Source of the DNA: Haladaptatus paucihalophilus DX253
GTDB lineage: Archaea > Halobacteriota > Halobacteria > Halobacteriales > Haladaptataceae
NCBI RefSeq assembly: GCF_000376445.1
Contig: NZ_AQXI01000001.1
Location: 962,962 to 1,026,961 of the forward strand
Length of the DNA stretch: 64,000 bases
Direction: 5' to 3'
A model generated the notes under the pieces. That model was given only the letters and a program-made list of their open reading frames with translations. It made no database searches and was not told the origin of the DNA. A program made the translations under genes and the position numbers. Positions 4,054 to 50,564 of the stretch are shown here, piece after piece. The stretch's first letter is position 1. Every line of letters begins with the position of its first letter.

Positions 4054-5562
4054 TCAGTCGTCGTGGCCGTGTCCGTGGTCGCCGTCGTGGTCGTCATCAT
4101 CGTGACCGTGGCCGTGGTCATGTCCGTGGTCGTGACCGTGGCCGCCATGGCCGTGACCGTGATCGTGGTCACGGATTCGCCGCCACACGGCGTGTTTCGT
4201 ATCGAGGTGACCTTCGCCGTGGTAGGTCGGGTCGTCGAGGTCGCGGGTCGTGGCTTCGAGGTGTTCGCGCACTTCGCCGGGCGTCGCGTCCGGGTTGACG
4301 CTCTTGACGAGCGCGGCGACCGCCGCCACTTGCGGCGACGCCATGCTCGTTCCTCCCTTCCAACCGTACGCGGGGACCATGTCCGCGTCGTCGTCCTCGT
4401 CGCCCCACTCGAAGACCGTGCTCAGTACCAAGTCGTACTGAGCGTTGGCGTCCTCGGGTGCGTCCTGGTCGAAGTTTCCGCCCGGGGCGCTGATGTCGAT
4501 GGCTTCCGCGCCGTAGTTGGTGTAGTACGCCGGTTCCCACGTCGGCTTTCGCAAGTGATGCAGCGCCCGCTTGTAGTGGTGACGGTCGTGGTGCCAACCG
4601 CCGTGGCCGCGTTTCTCCTCGTGTTTCTCCTTCCGCTGTTCGTCGTCCCAGAGGAAGCCGATGGGACCGGTGGCGCTGATGCTCATCACGTTGTCGGCCT
4701 CGTTCGGGAGGCTGATCACGTCGCCGTCGGCGTCGAGGTTGGCCGAATCGTTCCCCGCCGCCGCGACGAGGAGCGTCCCGTTCTCGTTTGCGTATCCCGA
4801 CGCACGTTCGATAGTCTCCTGTAGCAGTGCCGTATCGGAATCGTTCGGGAGCGGGTACGCGCCGAGGCTCATGTTCGCCACGTCGGACTCGATGTCAGCA
4901 CTGTACACCATCGCGGCAACGATGTCGCCGAAGGTGGCGAACGGTCCCGTGAACACGCGAAGGGCAACGAGGTCGGTGTCCGGCGCGGTGCCGATAACGC
5001 CATCTTCGTTCGACCCGTCAGCGGCGATGATACCCGAGCAGTGCGTTCCGTGGTCGCTGAGTATCGGGTTGAAATCGCCGCCGTCGCCGGTAAAGTTCTT
5101 CGAGAGGTCGGTGTTGAGCGCGTGTTGGAGGTCCGGGTGGGTTTCGAGCGCACCCGAGTCGATAACCGAGACGCGCGTCCCTTCGCCGCGCGTCCTGCGG
5201 TGGACCTGTAGGACGTCCTGTGCCTGTTTGTCCCATTGAAGGTCGTAGCGCGTATCGTGGGGATGGTGATCCGGATGTTCGTGGTGTTCGGTCTCGGCTT
5301 GGTTGAGCTCCATCTCAACGTCTTTCGAGTAGCGCGTTCCGCTGACGTCGCTCTTCTCCGCCTTGACCACGGCGATGTCTATCTGGTCGAGATGATGGAC
5401 GACTTCGAGTCCGTCGAGGACGTCCGACGGGGCATCTCGCAAATCGACGACATATCTGTCTTCGCGCGATTCCGCCGAAACGGTCGGCATCGTCAGTGTC
5501 AGTCCGCCAAGTGCAGCCCCTGCGCCCTTCAGGAAAGAACGGCGCGTCGGTTTTCGTGACAT
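4054..5562 (-). CDS. Tat-exported subtilisin-like protease with His-rich tail (first of a tandem pair)
   Basis: A secreted serine protease of 502 residues. MSRKPTRRSFLKGAG is a twin-arginine signal with cleavage likely near VSA at 30. A propeptide of inhibitor-I9 type follows (about 35-85). The catalytic domain shows D135 (VIDSG), H171 (DHGTHCSG), oxyanion N271 (AAAGND) and S406 (GTSMASP), so it should be active. A His-rich insertion sits at 310-336, and the last 38 residues are almost only H, D and G, which could bind divalent metal. An upstream in-frame ATG adds four residues before the Tat signal and is less likely. An AT-rich promoter region lies at 5575-5640. It shares long identical DNA blocks with the next gene. 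Confidence 0.9.
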   Translation of the reverse strand: MSRKPTRRSFLKGAGAALGGLTLTMPTVSAESREDRYVVDLRDAPSDVLDGLEVVHHLDQIDIAVVKAEKSDVSGTRYSKDVEMELNQAETEHHEHPDHHPHDTRYDLQWDKQAQDVLQVHRRTRGEGTRVSVIDSGALETHPDLQHALNTDLSKNFTGDGGDFNPILSDHGTHCSGIIAADGSNEDGVIGTAPDTDLVALRVFTGPFATFGDIVAAMVYSADIESDVANMSLGAYPLPNDSDTALLQETIERASGYANENGTLLVAAAGNDSANLDADGDVISLPNEADNVMSISATGPIGFLWDDEQRKEKHEEKRGHGGWHHDRHHYKRALHHLRKPTWEPAYYTNYGAEAIDISAPGGNFDQDAPEDANAQYDLVLSTVFEWGDEDDDADMVPAYGWKGGTSMASPQVAAVAALVKSVNPDATPGEVREHLEATTRDLDDPTYHGEGHLDTKHAVWRRIRDHDHGHGHGGHGHDHGHDHGHGHDDDDHDGDHGHGHDD

Positions 5563-5679
5563 TCGGTTGCACATCCCATTACAAATATATTAATCTTAAT
5601 ACTCCATTATTGTTTAAAAATTTTAAAGATGTGTTTTTATTTAATGTCATTTAAACGAGTGAAGCCAGAGACAACGAGT

Positions 5680-7182
5680 TCAGTCGTCGTGGCCGTGACC
5701 GCGGGTGCCGTCGTGGTCGTCATCATCGTGACCATGGTCATCGTCGTGACCTCGGTGGCCGCCGTGACCTCGGTCGTGGTCATCATCGTGACCGTGACCG
5801 TGGCCACGACCGTGGTCGTGGTCGTCGTCCCCTATTTCCTCCCAAACCGCTCGGGCGGTATCGAGGTGTCCCTCGCCGTGGTAGGTCGGGTCGTCGAGGT
5901 CGCGGGCCGTGGCTTCGAGGTGTTCGCGCACTTCGCCGGGCGTCGCGTCCGGGTTGACGCTCTTGACGAGCGCGGCGACCGCCGCCACTTGCGGCGACGC
6001 CATGCTCGTCCCCGCCTTCCAACCGTAGTCGGCGACGCGCTCGCCGTCCGATTCGGTGAAGACGGTGCTCAGAACGAGGTCGTAGTACCATTTGGAATCG
6101 GTGCCGATGGCGTCCTGATCCGCGTTGCCGCCGGGAGCACTGATGTCCACCGCTTCCGCGCCGTAGTTGGTGTAGAAGGCGGGTTCGTACGTCGGTTTTC
6201 GAAGGTGGTGAAGCGCGGCGTGGTAGTTGCGCTTTTCCCTTCCGCTCCCCTCGTCGTCCCACCGATAGCCGATGGGACCGGTGGCGCTGATGCTCATCAC
6301 GTTGTCGGCCTCGTTCGGGAGGCTGATCACGTCGCCGTCGGCGTCGAGGTTGGCCGAATCGTTCCCCGCTGCCGCGACCACGAGCGTTCCCTGTTCGTTC
6401 GCGTACGAGGCCGCGCGCTCGATGGCATCGCGGACGACCGCGGTGTCGGAATCCTTCGGCATCGGATACGCGCCGAGACTCATGTTCGCCGCATCCGATC
6501 CGATATCCCCGCTGTACACCATCGCCGCGATGATATCGCCGAAGGTGGCGGTCGGCCCGGAGAACACGCGAAGGGCGACGAGGTCGGTGCCAGGCGCGGT
6601 TCCGGTGACACCCTTGCCGTTCCGGTCGTCGGCGGCGATGATACCCGAGCAGTGCGTTCCGTGGTCGCTCTCGACCGGATTGAAGTCACCGCCGTCATCG
6701 GTGAAGTTCTTCGAGAGGTCGGTGTTGAGCGCGGATTGCAGGTCCGGATGGTCTTCGAACGCACCCGAGTCGATGACCGAAACGCGCGTCCCTTCACCGC
6801 GCGTCCTGCGGTGAACGCGCGGAACGTCCTGCGCTTGTTTGTCCCACTGAAGTCGATACAACGGGTCGCTCATCCGCTTGTGTCGGTCGTGTTCGTCCCC
6901 GTGATGTTCCACCTCGGGGAACGTGACAGTCATCTCTACGTCCTTCGAATACCGAGTTCCGCTCATCTTCGCGTCGTCGGCCCTGACGACGGCGATGTCG
7001 ATTTGGTCGAGCCGGTGGACGACTTCGACATCGGCCAAATCGCTTTCGCTCACGGACCGGAGGTCGAGAATGTATCGGTCTTCCGACGAACTCGCGGAAA
7101 TCGTCGGCACCGTCATCGTCAGCCCTGCGAGGGCCACCCCTGCACCTTTCAAAAAGGAACGTCGAGTTGGTTTTTGTGACAT
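5680..7182 (-). CDS. Tat-exported subtilisin-like protease with His-rich tail (second of a tandem pair)
   Basis: A paralogue of the neighbouring subtilase, 500 residues. MSQKPTRRSFLKGAG is the Tat signal, followed by an I9-like propeptide. The catalytic residues are D138, H174 and S393, with N in AAAGND near 274. The His-rich insertion of the sister protein is mostly reduced here to a short EGSGREKRNYHAALHH segment, but the H/D/G/R tail (from about 452) is kept and slightly longer. The two genes are separated by about 117 bp of very AT-rich sequence, so each probably has its own promoter. Parts of the coding sequence are identical to the sister gene at the DNA level while other parts have diverged, as gene conversion would produce. 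Confidence 0.9.
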   Translation of the reverse strand: MSQKPTRRSFLKGAGVALAGLTMTVPTISASSSEDRYILDLRSVSESDLADVEVVHRLDQIDIAVVRADDAKMSGTRYSKDVEMTVTFPEVEHHGDEHDRHKRMSDPLYRLQWDKQAQDVPRVHRRTRGEGTRVSVIDSGAFEDHPDLQSALNTDLSKNFTDDGGDFNPVESDHGTHCSGIIAADDRNGKGVTGTAPGTDLVALRVFSGPTATFGDIIAAMVYSGDIGSDAANMSLGAYPMPKDSDTAVVRDAIERAASYANEQGTLVVAAAGNDSANLDADGDVISLPNEADNVMSISATGPIGYRWDDEGSGREKRNYHAALHHLRKPTYEPAFYTNYGAEAVDISAPGGNADQDAIGTDSKWYYDLVLSTVFTESDGERVADYGWKAGTSMASPQVAAVAALVKSVNPDATPGEVREHLEATARDLDDPTYHGEGHLDTARAVWEEIGDDDHDHGRGHGHGHDDDHDRGHGGHRGHDDDHGHDDDDHDGTRGHGHDD

Positions 7183-7437
7183 TCCGGTAGATATCAATTG
7201 TTCCTTGTTTTAACGTTATGTATTCCGGCAACAGATAACGCGTGTCTAGGCGACGGTGATAACGCGTGTCCAGACGGCGGGAACGAATACGACGGAAATG
7301 AATGCGACGGAAATGAACGCGACGGGACGACACTCGCGGACGGGGGTGGCTTCCGCGAAAACAGGTTCGAAGTCGGGTCCTCGTTCGCGGCGCCGTGGTG
7401 GCGCCGCGTTGAAGCGATACAGCCGTCTCGATGGTGA
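7183..7437. repeat. Intergenic region with short direct repeats
   Basis: There is no convincing gene between the second subtilase and the DUF7344 gene. A 13-mer GATAACGCGTGTC occurs at 7234-7246 and 7258-7270, a 24-nt period. A 15-nt unit CGACGGAAATGAAYG is then repeated at 7290-7304 and 7305-7319 with a degenerate partner on each side. The AT-rich part at 7190-7220 is probably the subtilase promoter. An ORF here on the plus strand is rich in D, G and N only because of the repeats and is not called. Confidence 0.6.
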
Positions 7438-27320: not shown

Positions 27321-28067
27321 ATGACGTCCGAATCACATCGCCCCCGGGCCACGTTCGAAATCAGCCACCACGAGGAGCCGAGCGGCACCCTCCTCGCCGG
27401 GTTTTCCGAGTTCGGTCTCGCCGGACTGACCGCCGCGAATTACCTCGTCGAGCAACTCGACCTCGAAGAGATGGGCCACATCACGGCCGAGCAGTTGCCC
27501 GCGATTACGCCGTTCGAGAACGGGCGTCCGCGCCACCACACGCGACTGTTCTCGCGGTCGGACCTCGACCTGACCATCCTCGTCGGCGAACTGTTCGTTC
27601 CCGTCTGGGCCGCCGACCCCTTCGCCACCGCGATTCTCGACTGGACGGCGAAGCACGGGGTCGAGGAGATAGCCGTCCTCTCGGGGATTCCCGTCCCGCA
27701 CGGTCCCGACGAACACCGCGTCTTCTCCATCGCCACCGATGATTTCCACGAGAAGCGCCTCGACGGCACGGACATCCCCGGCATGGGTCGCGGATTCCTC
27801 GACGGCGTGAACGCGACCCTCATCGCTCGCGGCCTCGACACGCCGCTTGCGACCGGCGTGTTCGTCACCCCCGTCCACGCACAGACGCCGGACGTCGAGG
27901 CCGCGCTCCGCCTCATCGATGCCGTCCGTGACGTGTACGGACTGACCATCGACACGGACCCGCTCGAAGCATTCGCCGAGGAAGTCGGCGAGTACTACGC
28001 CGAACTCGCCCAGCGTGTCGAATCGGCCGGGGACAGAGAACGACCGGACGACCGGATGTACATGTAG
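27321..28067 (+). CDS. PAC2-family protein (proteasome assembly chaperone-like)
   Basis: A 248-residue member of the PAC2 family, which in eukaryotes contains proteasome assembly chaperones and in archaea is found next to proteasome genes. Conserved parts are LLAGFSEFGLAGLTAANYLVEQL, the segment LTILVGELFVPVW, VLSGIPVPHG and GVFVTPVHAQTPDVEAALRLIDAV. There is no proteasome gene next to it here. Two bases after its TAG stop a structured repeat begins, which could form the 3' end of its mRNA. It is probably a cytoplasmic protein. Confidence 0.85.
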   Translation: MTSESHRPRATFEISHHEEPSGTLLAGFSEFGLAGLTAANYLVEQLDLEEMGHITAEQLPAITPFENGRPRHHTRLFSRSDLDLTILVGELFVPVWAADPFATAILDWTAKHGVEEIAVLSGIPVPHGPDEHRVFSIATDDFHEKRLDGTDIPGMGRGFLDGVNATLIARGLDTPLATGVFVTPVHAQTPDVEAALRLIDAVRDVYGLTIDTDPLEAFAEEVGEYYAELAQRVESAGDRERPDDRMYM

Positions 28068-28069
28068 CA

Positions 28070-28252
28070 GAACGTTTTACGACGGTCGGTGTCGGGCGAG
28101 CGTGGTGAGTCACCACGCCCGCCCGACGCCTCCCTGTAAAACGTTCATCAAAAGCACTCCTTCCTCATTTCGACGAACGACTCGCGGCGCGAGTCGTTCG
28201 TCTCCATTCGGTCGTCGGCCCGGAAAATCTTCGATTTTCCGGAGAGCGTACT
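28070..28252 (+). repeat. Structured repeat, copy A (plus strand)
   Basis: A 180-nt element of nested inverted repeats starting 2 nt after the PAC2 stop. P1 is GAACGTTTTAC (28070-28080) with GTAAAACGTTC (28136-28146). Inside, P2 is GTCGGGC(28091)...GCCCGAC(28121) topped by CGTGGTG-AGT-CACCACG. A linker containing CAAAAGC follows. P3 is a perfect 14-bp hairpin (28172-28185 with 28189-28202). P5 is CCGGAAAATC-TTC-GATTTTCCGG (28220-28242), enclosed by CGGTCG/CGACTG. Copy B shares nearly all unpaired and P1/P3/P5 sequence, but its P2 differs completely and still pairs. No open reading frame is conserved. It may be an RNA structure at the mRNA 3' end or a mobile palindromic repeat. Confidence 0.75.
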
Positions 28253-28440
28253 AGCGACTGGCGGCTGTGTTACCAGTGGAAGTTTGGTGGTCGTCTCAAT
28301 CGCCGATTTTCGATGGTTGGTCGGTTGCTGACATTCTGGCGGTTGTGTCATCGGCTGGTTTTCGGCAGTTGTGTCGATTGCGGACTTCCGTCGGTTATGT
28401 GACTGGCCTACCGCTCCCTTCGGTCGCTCGCCGAAATCTA
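28253..28440. repeat. 26-bp period tandem repeat between structured repeats A and C
   Basis: Three degenerate units of 26 nt start at 28341, 28367 and 28393 with GGTTGTGTCATCGGC, AGTTGTGTCGATTGC and GGTTATGTGACTGGC. A related GGCTGTGTTACCAG is at 28263. The unit GGTTGTGTCGATTGC also follows copy B at 50461-50475, so one unit probably belongs to the element and was multiplied here. No gene is supported between 28068 and 28703. Confidence 0.55.
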
Positions 28441-28468
28441 GCGACCGGCGAAGCGATAGGCTACCTGT

Positions 28469-28656
28469 CCTTTCAGGGCGCTAACGACCTCTCCGCGAAC
28501 GGCTTCGCCGTTCGCGGGCCGAGGACCCCCGACGGAGCGACTGAAAGGAGCGACGGAAGTGGGGTGGCGTCGTGCTTTTGGTCCAGCTTTTACAGGGAAC
28601 CGACCAGGGCGATGGCACTCGCCATCGCTCTGGCCTGTGACCGTCGTAAAAGGTGG
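28469..28656 (-). repeat. Structured repeat, copy C (minus strand, diverged)
   Basis: This is the same architecture as copies A and B, on the opposite strand. P1 is 28583-28593 with 28646-28656 (10 of 11 pairs), with stem bases different from A and B outside the shared TTTTAC/GTAAAA. P2 is CCAGGGCGATGGC (28604-28616) with GCCATCGCTCTGG (28621-28633), 13 bp with one wobble. The unpaired GACGGTC and CCCT next to P1 and the CAAAAGCAC linker are kept. P5 is CCGCGAACGGC-TTC-GCCGTTCGCGG (28493-28517), enclosed by CCTTTCAG (28469-28476) and CTGAAAGG (28541-28548). The P3 position holds no clear hairpin. The element ends about 48 nt before the start of the TrmB-type gene. Confidence 0.7.
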
Positions 28657-28703
28657 AAGCGAAAGCTGGGGTTCTATAGTCCTCCGTGGATTCCCGTTTC
28701 ATA

Positions 28704-29765
28704 ATGAGCTCCGACGACCTCTATCTGACACTCGAACGAGTCGGAGAACGGTTCAGCTTAGGGGAGTACGAGATCGACGCGTATCTCACGGTACTCGAAC
28801 ACGGACGACTGACGGCGAGCGAAATCGCGGACCACACCGACATTCCGCAACCGCGGGTGTACGACACCGTTCGCAGTCTGAGCGACCGTGGACTGGTCGA
28901 ACTCCGCGAATCCCGACCGATGAAGGTCATCGCCATCGACCCCGAAGAAGCCTTCTCCGACGTGCAATCGTCGCTCGGCGAGATGATAACCGAACTCGAA
29001 GAGCGCTACACCGCCCCGGCGCGGGATACGGAAGCCGTCTCGCTGGTCAAATCCCGCTCGACCATCCTCCGTTACCTCGAAGACGTCATCGAGGCGGCCG
29101 AGTACGAACTCGCGCTGTCGCTGACGCCCGACCTCCTCGAACGGTTCGCCGACGACCTCGCGGCGGCCATCGACTCGGGCGTGAGCACCGAACTGCTCGT
29201 CACGCCCGCCTCGGAAGCACCCGACCCGACGGAGTTCGACTACGAGTCCGTGGCGACTACCGCCCGCGCGCGCCGCGGAATCACGACGCCCGTCATCGCG
29301 GTGGCGGACGGCGAATACTCGATGTACGCGACGCAGGACGCCCTCCGCGACGACCGCGACCGGTACGGCGTCATCTTCAACCGCTCCGCGCTGGGATTCC
29401 TCGTGTCCGGCTTCTTCGGCACGGTGCTCTGGACGACCGCCGAGCGAACCCTCTCGGAGGACGCCGAAAAGCGTTCGTTCCCGCGCCGATACGCCTCCAT
29501 TCGTCGGTGCGTCAAGGAGATTCAAGGGATGGAAGGCGAGTTCTACGCGACCATCAAGGGCCGCGACATCGAATCCGGAAACGACCGTATCGTTCGCGGA
29601 AAGGTCGTCGGCTTCTCCTTCGAGGGCGGCGAGCGCGTCGCGGGAATGTCGGTCGAAACCGAGACGGGAACGGTCACCGTTGGCGGGCAGGTCGCCGCGC
29701 TCGAAGACATCGAAGCGCACGAAATCCGAATCGGGACGGACGAACCACCGGCCTACGAGCGGTGA
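28704..29765 (+). CDS. TrmB-family transcriptional regulator
   Basis: A 353-residue sugar-type regulator. The N-terminal winged helix of the TrmB class is seen in [40 protein letters not shown] and the following wing. The middle (about 100-240) is the PLD-like/TrmBL2 effector domain ([20 protein letters not shown]), and the end (about 275-345) is a small beta domain ([17 protein letters not shown]). Its context, a sugar ABC operon about 4 kb downstream, suggests control of carbohydrate uptake, as for other haloarchaeal TrmB proteins. An ATG six codons upstream exists; MSSDDLYL is chosen because the HTH starts there. It is preceded by structured repeat copy C. Confidence 0.85.
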
Positions 29766-47766: not shown

Positions 47767-48009
47767 ATGACGCTCGAACGAATATCACAGCAAGAAGACA
47801 GTATTGCACGCCGCTACGAGTACGGCGACGAAGAGCTCATCGTCGCGGATTTCGGCACGGCAGAGGTGTCGGTCGACGTGCTGGATGACGCCGCAATCGT
47901 CGTCGTGGAGCGCGACGGCGAGAGTTTCCAAAGCGAAATCGAGCTACCGGACGGTGACGCGCAAGCGTTTATCAACAATGGTGTCCTCACTATCGAGGTG
48001 GGACAATGA
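47767..48009 (+). CDS. Small alpha-crystallin/CS-like protein (DUF7127 type) coupled to Cdc48
   Basis: An 80-residue beta-rich protein of the haloarchaeal family I recall as DUF7127. The C-terminal pattern A67-x-x-x-N71-G-V-L-T-I-E-V matches the end of the Hsp20/alpha-crystallin and CS fold, although the protein is shorter than a full alpha-crystallin domain. Its stop overlaps the cdc48 start by four bases (ATGA at 48006-48009), so the two are translationally coupled. Its acidic N-terminus and the coupling suggest a cofactor that delivers or holds substrates for the ATPase. This is inference from position and fold pattern. Confidence 0.8.
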
Positions 48010-50267
48010 AACTTACAGTCAAACCGCTCAAGCAGAAGGACGCGGGTCGCGGACTCGCGGCGGTTGATCGACGCTCCATGGAGGAGTTGGGTGTCGAAAA
48101 CGGCGACTATATTGTCATCGAGGGGCATGGGCAGGGTCGTGCTGTCGCGCGGGTTTGGCCCGGCTACCCCGAGGACGAGGGTCGCGGTATCATCCGTATC
48201 GACGGGAAGCTCCGGCAGGAGGCCGGGGTCGGCATCGACGACAAAGTGGGCATCGAGAAAGCCGACGTGAACCCGGCGAACCGGGTCACGATAGCGCTCC
48301 CGCAGAACCTCCAGATTCGCGGGAACATCGCCCCGCACATCCGCGATAAGCTGAGCGGGCAAGCCATCACCCAAGGGCAGGCGATTCCGTTCGGCTTCGG
48401 CCTGATGGGAATGGGCTCCGGCCAGTCGATTCCGCTCAAGGTCGCCGAAACCGACCCGGACGGAACCGTCGTCGTCACCGACGCCACCGAGATTCAGATC
48501 AGCGAACGCCCGGCCGAGGAGATTACGGCCGGTGGCGGTGCGGGCGGTCAAGCCCGACCGGACGTGACCTACGAGGACATCGGCGGTCTGGAGCGCGAAC
48601 TCGAACAGGTTCGTGAGATGATAGAGCTCCCGATGCGCCACCCGGAGCTGTTCAGCCGCCTCGGCATCGACCCGCCGAAGGGCGTCCTGCTCCACGGCCC
48701 GCCGGGAACCGGGAAGACCCTGATGGCGAAGGCCGTCGCCAACGAGATCGACGCCTACTTCCAGACCATCTCCGGCCCGGAGATTATGTCGAAGTACTAC
48801 GGCGAGTCGGAAGAGCAACTGCGGGAGGTGTTCGAGGAGGCCGAACAGAACTCCCCGGCCATCATCTTCATCGACGAACTCGACTCCATCGCACCCAAGC
48901 GCGAGGAAGCGGGCGGGGACGTGGAACGCCGCGTCGTCGCGCAACTGCTCTCGCTGATGGACGGTCTCGAAGAGCGCGGTGAGGTGACGGTCATCGCCGC
49001 GACGAACCGCGTCGATGCAGTGGACCCCGCGCTTCGTCGCGGTGGTCGCTTCGACCGCGAAATAGAGATCGGCGTGCCGGACCGCGAGGGGCGCCTCGAA
49101 ATCCTGCAGGTTCACACCCGCGGGATGCCGCTCGCCGACGGCGTGGACTTGGAGGCGTACGCCGACAACACCCACGGCTTCGTCGGTGCCGACCTCGAAT
49201 CGCTGGCCCGCGAATCCGCGATGAACGCGCTTCGGCGCGTCCGCCCCGAACTCGACCTCGATTCGGAAGAGATTCCGGCGGACGTACTGGAGTCGCTGAA
49301 GGTCACCGAAGCGGACTTCAAGGAGGCGCTGAAGGGTATCGAACCCTCCGCGCTCCGCGAGGTGTTCGTCGAAGTCCCCGACGTGACGTGGCAGGACGTC
49401 GGTGGCTTGGAGAACACCAAGGAACGCCTCCGCGAGACCATCCAGTGGCCGCTCGACTACCCCGAGGTGTTCCAAGCGCTCGACATGCAGGCCGCGAAAG
49501 GCGTCCTGATGTACGGGCCGCCGGGAACCGGGAAGACCCTGATGGCGAAGGCCGTCGCCAACGAGAGCGATAGCAACTTCATCTCGATCAAGGGCCCCGA
49601 ACTGCTGTCGAAGTGGGTCGGTGAGTCCGAGAAAGGCGTCCGCGAAGTGTTCAGCAAGGCCCGCGAGAACGCCCCGACCGTGGTGTTCTTCGACGAGATC
49701 GACTCCATCGCCACGGAACGCGGCCGCGACGGCGGCGGTGGCACGCAGGTCAGCGAGCGCGTCGTCTCGCAACTGCTGACCGAACTCGACGGCCTCGAAG
49801 AACTCGAAGACGTCGTGGTTATCGCCACCTCGAACCGCCCCGACCTCATCGACTCGGCGCTCTTGCGTCCGGGACGGTTGGACCGCCACGTCCACGTGCC
49901 CGTGCCGGACGAGGAGGCGCGCCACGCCATCTTCGAGGTCCACACCCGCCACAAGCCGCTGGCCGACGACGTTGACCTCGAAGAACTCGCGGAGCAAACC
50001 GACGGCTACGTCGGTGCCGACATCGAAGCCGTCTGCCGCGAGGCCGCGATGGCCGCCAGCCGCGAGTTCATCGAGAGCGTCTCGCCGGACGATATCGGCG
50101 AGAGCGTCGGCAACGTCCGCATCACCGCGGAGCACTTCGAGGACGCGCTCGGCGAGGTGACGCCCAGCGTCACCGAGGAGACCCGCGAACGCTACGCGGA
50201 AATCGAAGAGCGGTTCGACACCGCGGAACCCGAGACGAAAGAGCAGTTGGGTCGAACGTTCCAATAG
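48006..50267 (+). CDS. cdc48: Cdc48/VAT AAA+ ATPase
   Basis: A 753-residue ATP-driven unfoldase. The N-domain (about 3-85 and 100-165) is the double-psi barrel plus CDC48_2 fold. The two AAA modules carry Walker A GPPGTGKT at 231-238 and 504-511, Walker [10 protein letters not shown] and VVFFDEIDS, and R-finger regions near [13 protein letters not shown] and [13 protein letters not shown]. The second module starts at TWQDVGGLE. It acts on ubiquitin-like or misfolded substrates and feeds the proteasome in archaea. The last base of its stop codon is the first base of P1 of a structured repeat. Confidence 0.95.
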
Positions 50268-50455
50268 AACGTTTTACGACGGTCGGACATCAGCGGTCGC
50301 GCGCTACTGCACGCGACCGCTGACAGCCTCCCTGTAAAACGTTCATCAAAAGCGCTCCTCCTTCATTTTGACGAACGACTCGCTCTGCGAGTCGTTCGTC
50401 TCCATTCAGTCGTCGGCCCGGAAAATCTCCGATTTTCCGGAGATGACACTAGTGA
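50267..50455 (+). repeat. Structured repeat, copy B (plus strand)
   Basis: It is highly similar to copy A. P1 is GAACGTTTTAC (50267-50277, its G is the last base of the cdc48 TAG) with GTAAAACGTTC (50334-50344). P2 is TCAGCGGTCGCG (50290-50301) with CGCGACCGCTGA (50312-50323), a stem unrelated in sequence to copy A. P3 is a perfect 14-bp hairpin with loop TCT (50370-50400). P5 is CCGGAAAATC-TCC-GATTTTCCGG (50418-50440). GGTTGTGTCGATTGC follows at 50461-50475. Nothing further is seen up to the next gene at 50565. Confidence 0.75.
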
Positions 50456-50564
50456 CTTGCGGTTGTGTCGATTGCCTATCGCGGTGCTGTCGGCATTTCG
50501 TGCGAATTGTCGCATCGTTCAGTTCGGAATCGACGGACTGCTGGTACAGGGATAGCGAAACGCG

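Follow-up and report, generated by a model that had tools for sequence, protein, structure and literature searches.

Archaeal T-tract terminators, which are assisted by aCPSF1 (FttA), lie on the coding strand beyond the 3′ end of the gene. In Haloferax volcanii the intergenic terminators are T stretches, T5C gave 95% termination in vivo, and the median 3′ UTR is 97 nt (PMC7237163). Bacterial bidirectional intrinsic terminators lie between convergent genes as a palindrome flanked by T and A runs. The REP and BIME sequences of bacteria are short extragenic palindromes found in hundreds of copies near gene 3′ ends or stop codons, and some GTAG REPs supply a TAG stop codon (PMC3733652). The SMRs and PATEs of Haloquadratum are short, non-coding haloarchaeal repeats that have palindromic or inverted ends and make no target duplication (PMC3119063).

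A palindromic element with three copies (A, B and C) in a 64,000-nt stretch of the Haladaptatus paucihalophilus DX253 genome, hereafter the window, was compared with these systems. Like archaeal T-tract terminators, it has a T stretch on the coding strand behind the gene (T4 at 3–25 nt past the stop codon in 60/63 copies), and it takes the site of plain T-tracts in orthologs that lack it. Unlike them, it is a long palindrome that covaries and has a conserved internal loop, lies flush with the stop codon and forms a multicopy family. It resembles REPs and BIMEs in being a short extragenic palindrome near gene ends, but it has about 24 copies, no constant stem sequence, a T4 that faces the gene and a location restricted to the main chromosome. 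The GTAG tag is missing; CGTC occurs only as the reverse complement of the Haladaptatus P1 motif and is lost in related genera (TTTTGCTGCGGTC). Haloquadratum SMRs and PATEs are similar in size, ends and lack of coding capacity, and no target duplication was seen for the present element either, whereas it is locked to the stop codon, replaces its stem with compensatory change and occupies orthologous positions across families. With bidirectional intrinsic terminators it shares a palindrome between T and A runs and convergent neighbors, but its gene-proximal T run starts at the stop codon and precedes the hairpin. A bacterial intrinsic terminator was rejected because that requires a GC hairpin followed by a T run, while the order along the gene strand is stop codon, T4, hairpin, A4. 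At the Rfam gathering score the window matched only a tRNA, which rules out a known Rfam family, and no description of the element was found in the open-licence literature searched.

Table 1. Copies of the element in the window and the features that surround them.
Feature	Position	Strand	Description
PAC2-family gene, host of copy A	27321..28067	+	ORF; Pfam PF09754, E=5e-34; stop codon TAG at 28065-28067
Copy A hairpin	28070..28146	+	Left arm GAACGTTTTACGACGGTC (28070-28087), variable upper stem, right arm TCCCTGTAAAACGTTC (28131-28146); covariance model score 80 bits; RNA fold with first pair 28070-28146, -56.6 kcal/mol, z -9.6
Mosaic A-C spacer	28147..28581		Extra hairpins at 28172-28202 and 28220-28242; degenerate repeats
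Copy C hairpin, inverted	28582..28657	-	Gene-facing T4 52 nt upstream of trmB start; RNA fold; covariance model score 83.6 bits
trmB, downstream of copy C	28704..29765	+	Pfam PF11495, PF01978
cdc48 (AAA ATPase), host of copy B	47961..50267	+	Pfam PF00004; start approximate; stop codon TAG at 50265-50267
Copy B hairpin	50267..50344	+	Pairing begins at the G of the cdc48 stop codon; covariance model score 77 bits; RNA fold with first pair 50267-50344, -48.2 kcal/mol, z -7.4
Modules 3′ of copy B, common to copy A	50345..50468		Hairpins at 50370-50400 and 50418-50440; 89% identity over 143 nt

Re-reading the sequence confirmed that the PAC2 stop codon is followed by CA and then by GAACGTTTTACGACGGTC from 28070, where the first base pair also falls, and that in copy B the G of the cdc48 TAG doubles as the first base of GAACGTTTTACGACGGTC. 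The initial annotation placed both copies at exactly the same point relative to the stop codon; they are in fact offset by 3 nt, with T4 gaps of 7 and 4 nt. The interiors that follow copies A and B (28147-28581 and 50345-50468) are mosaics of hairpins with constant borders and variable stems, for example GACGAACGACTCGC..GCGAGTCGTTCGTC and CCGGAAAATC..GATTTTCCGG. Degenerate repeats of about 26 nt (TTGTGTC..TTCGGCGG) were recognized there by eye and were unreported by TRF, and the A-C spacer contains a short tandem duplication, GGAGCGACGGAAA, at 28534-28558. Elsewhere in the window, two adjoining subtilase (Peptidase_S8) genes on the minus strand (4054-5574 and 5680-7197) are up to 87% alike in places and have repetitive, His/Asp-rich 3′ ends.

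The P1 motif (TTTTACGACGGTC) was found in 16 exact copies in the DX253 genome, whose nearest named PAC2 relatives are Haladaptatus species, and in 6–13 copies per genome in eight congeners. The remaining genera of the family gave a single match, and the reversed-pattern control gave none. A covariance model built from 20 copies identified about 24 distinct places in DX253, including variants without an exact P1, all on the largest contig (C1). Five genomes have one clear main chromosome, and there every listed copy was on it (log10 P ∼ -20).

The distance to the upstream stop codon was tabulated for the 63 copies, from nine species, that have a same-strand gene upstream. Stop-linked placement proved to be the rule, and beyond chance as the initial annotation had supposed. 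The gap between the stop codon and T4 is bimodal, 3–11 nt in 42/63 copies and 16–25 nt in 18/63, the longer gap often with an extra CACCTTT(T) immediately 3′ of the stop codon. Of 101 ordinary DX253 genes whose spacer is 60 nt or longer, only 4 had a T4 at 3–11 nt, and copies A and B were two of the four. The first T4 of ordinary genes, if there is one, mostly lies 12–60 nt past the stop codon. The difference at 3–11 nt gives a Fisher p of ∼1e-20, a value to be read knowing that orthologous copies are not independent. The genus counts, made with a codon-bias gene caller, include orthologs and so do not represent independent events; the 3′ class corresponds to about 21 separate host gene families.

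The spacers of 79 copies comprised 46 codirectional, 32 convergent and 1 divergent, against a background of 30–32% divergent. They hold at least one gene 3′ end and almost never lie between two promoters. This orientation and spacer type (1/79 divergent) ruled out a random intergenic repeat. The scarcity of T4..A4 hairpins also led us to reject a general terminator of all genes: the window had 3 intergenic examples, a further 200 kb had 4, and 200 kb of another genome (G024) had none.

A second, 5′-boundary class has 15 copies that point away from a start codon 36–76 nt downstream, which would put them just upstream of the expected BRE/TATA of a leaderless gene. Copy C, which had seemed a possible exception to the placement rule, belongs to this class; it recurs at trmB in G002 and G004 (H. 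litoreus), and strain DYF46 has a variant hairpin at the same trmB position. Some copies follow the 3′ end of a tRNA-Ala or tRNA-Arg gene, or a duplicated 3′ fragment of a tRNA. At six loci (L026, L071, L113, L361, L370 and L375) the hairpins lie beside such duplicated fragments, which are of the kind that integrase attachment sites leave, and the gene upstream at L113 appears by eye to be tyrosine-recombinase-like.

The host stop codons are TAA (29), TAG (20) and TGA (11). This mixture, and the copies at tRNA 3′ ends that have no stop codon, argue against the proposal that TAG is part of an insertion target. A link of the hosts to protein quality control had also been proposed. Cdc48, two PAC2 genes and a thermosome do look over-represented, but most of the ∼21 host families are metabolic or informational, which rules out a proteostasis-only regulon. 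The last 12 coding nucleotides of host genes are T-richer, and F, Y or W occurs in the last three residues of 13/21 host proteins and of 50/225 background proteins (p 3e-4). We do not attribute the aromatic C-termini to the element: PAC2 orthologs that lack it have an unchanged C-terminus, and a difference from the background may be a property of core genes. The C-terminal residues of Cdc48 and PAC2 are FQ or YM, reminiscent of the HbYX tails that dock to the proteasome.

The hairpin has a base of 3–5 bp (CCA/TGG, CGA/TCG or GAA/TTC), of which the GAA/TTC type may take in bases of the stop codon. Above the base there is often a C.C mismatch, followed by CTTTTAC/GTAAAAG and by a conserved internal loop of CGGTC facing TCCCT. 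Two covarying pairs come next, and then a long, near-perfect upper stem with a loop of 3–5 nt. Some copies have one or two additional hairpins ahead of the right arm. The constant letters are GAACC, CGACC or CCACC plus T4; the GAACC type overlaps the stop codon differently, with TGA at a gap of 3 and TAG at a gap of 4. The stem covaries strongly: both partners change in 21/31 pairs, and the covariation score was 0.63, compared with 0.16 for shuffled and 0.06–0.13 for slid controls. The two outermost base pairs, next to the stop codon, covary fully. T4 stays constant while its neighbors covary (TTTTAC/GTAAAA, TTTTGC/GCAAAA, TTTTGT/ACAAAA and TTTTCT/AGAAAA). In DX253, the TTTTAC copies are mostly behind stop codons. 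The TTTTGC, TTTTGT and TTTTCT variants (L420–L424) are mostly upstream of promoters, and several have a common stem family, CCGAATCCGGCGC. The two groups are possibly specialized subfamilies.

In 18 genomes (g3) from the same family as Haladaptatus, cdc48 and PAC2-2 mostly have a related hairpin in the corresponding position, TGA|AACTTTTGCTGCGGTC..TCCCTGGCAAAACTTTCATGAAAAAC. The PAC2-2 hairpin was also found in families f3, f4, f8 and f10 and is absent in others. A wider search used a pattern from the far arm only (AAAACNTTCATGAAAA), which makes no reference to stop codons. It identified 83 sites in 30/145 haloarchaeal genomes and 0 in the reversed control. Seventy sites were read. The partner T4 was 3–9 nt past a same-strand stop codon in 65/70, mostly TGA +3 or TAG +4, with GTTT replacing T4 at one of the 65. 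Four lie at intact or duplicated tRNA-Arg 3′ ends, and direct reading placed the last behind a short ORF with a TGA stop codon. Cdc48, PAC2, PhoU, eIF1A, a PAPS-reductase-like gene and a 201-aa gene carry it in more than one genus, and the first five of these recur as hosts in several families. Other hosts, identified by eye, are PolD DP2, Orc1/Cdc6, RadA, PstB and SRP54.

Presence of the element varies between species. H. halobius and H. pallidirubidus lack the A-C mosaic and have one compact hairpin that fills the PAC2-trmB spacer. DX253 and strain DYF46 have two outward-facing hairpins with a mosaic of about 400 nt between them, so that copies A and C bound one spacer. At aconitase, related genomes without the element have a plain T-tract roughly 15–35 nt past the stop codon. 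Independent insertion is too simple a description of the copies, whose sites are orthologous across species and genera. Upper stems had a mean likeness of 0.61 at orthologous loci and 0.58 at random loci, and a small number of stem families appear at more than one locus (L011 and L022 are 99% alike). Stems turn over at orthologous sites, with base pairing kept. The scatter of the copies and their uneven presence make it likely that copying spread the element at some point.

Could the placement reflect mobility alone? A non-autonomous mobile palindrome (REP-, SMR- or MITE-like) might insert in or beside the terminator T-tract behind genes, with target choice plus purifying selection producing the observed positions and no function involved. 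The dispersed family, the near-identical stems at separate loci, the stem likeness at orthologous loci barely above random and the differences in presence between species all agree with this, and Haloquadratum SMRs have ITRs, no target duplication and an unknown mobilizer (PMC3119063). We felt that it was nonetheless unlikely. Confinement to the main chromosome in the five genomes is unlike typical mobile elements, the same core genes keep the element across families, divergent spacers are nearly devoid of it, compensatory change preserves pairing, and neither a clean empty site nor a target duplication was seen in orthologous flanks.

An mRNA 3′-end hairpin acting on RNA, as an exonuclease block or by slowing translation termination through a stop codon at its base, is less likely still. 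The hairpin does begin at or a few nucleotides past the stop codon and can pair the stop itself (TGA with TCA), and E. coli REPs less than 16 nt from a stop codon lower translation (PMC12306157). The inner-stem mismatches, read on the sense strand, were A.C in 23 cases and G.T in 5 (17 and 5 under a stricter stem definition), which is the reverse of a sense-RNA constraint, so that action by a sense hairpin is not supported and a sense-strand structured RNA was rejected. The corresponding count in the wider set was 5 to 3, too few cases to tell. Opposite-strand RNA folds better in 97/112 units, and tRNA genes carry the element too. About equally doubtful is a boundary at the DNA level, where a cruciform or protein-bound palindrome would absorb supercoils or insulate neighbors, as proposed for some BIMEs. 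Occupation of gene boundaries on both sides of spacers, near-perfect palindromes with no sense-RNA signature and the conserved internal-loop letters, which suggest recognition, would fit such a boundary, but it leaves unexplained both the fixed T4 facing the gene and the tie of a few nucleotides to the stop codon.

We consider a T-tract-based bidirectional 3′-end signal the best reading, and hold it with roughly even confidence. It is favored by the T-tract replacement at aconitase, the gene-facing T4, the spacers with at least one gene 3′ end and the more distant first T4 of ordinary genes. The stop-codon gap rule, the far-arm search, the covariation around a constant T4 and the T-stretch terminators of H. 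volcanii also speak for it. The suggestion that the element functions as a 3′ UTR signal is partly supported: its placement is linked to the stop codon, and a terminator-like role fits best. Action through the sense RNA is not supported. As a T4-5 tract faces the gene on both outer edges, polymerase would meet CTTTT before the hairpin on either strand. Because the tract is flush with a stop codon or tRNA 3′ end, the archaeal T-tract/aCPSF1 (FttA) pathway would end transcription no more than ∼10 nt past the stop, and mRNAs would be almost UTR-less. The palindrome may also halt polymerase arriving from the far side, from a convergent neighbor or by read-through, and copies like C would stop divergent transcription just upstream of a promoter. 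The hairpin and its CGGTC/TCCCT loop probably have a part in this, and the hairpin may act as DNA or as antisense RNA, or may merely accompany bidirectionality and copying. Several points count against a 3′-end signal. T4 is short compared with the T5C tested as a terminator in Haloferax, where the median 3′ UTR of 97 nt is also long, and the element occurs at only about 24 of several thousand genes. A long stem and conserved internal loop are superfluous for a T-tract terminator, the T-tract lies within the stem so that U4 would be paired if transcribed through, and copies of the 5′ class require an extra assumption.

To our knowledge, the placement of haloarchaeal mRNA 3′ ends is poorly known. 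More tentatively, the element may be an undescribed punctuation element spanning haloarchaeal families, in which a stop codon inside a covarying palindrome would fix the transcript end and leave core-gene mRNAs (Cdc48, PAC2, PolD, RadA, Cdc6, SRP54, eIF1A and PhoU) almost without a UTR. If this is true, a DNA signature would locate 3′ ends at most a few bases from the stop codon, for the same genes, in several families. The set of elements would provide transcripts to test and a ready-made natural set of compensatory mutants. The palindromes also hold their position while the stem sequence is replaced, for which concerted copying, template switching and selection are candidate explanations.
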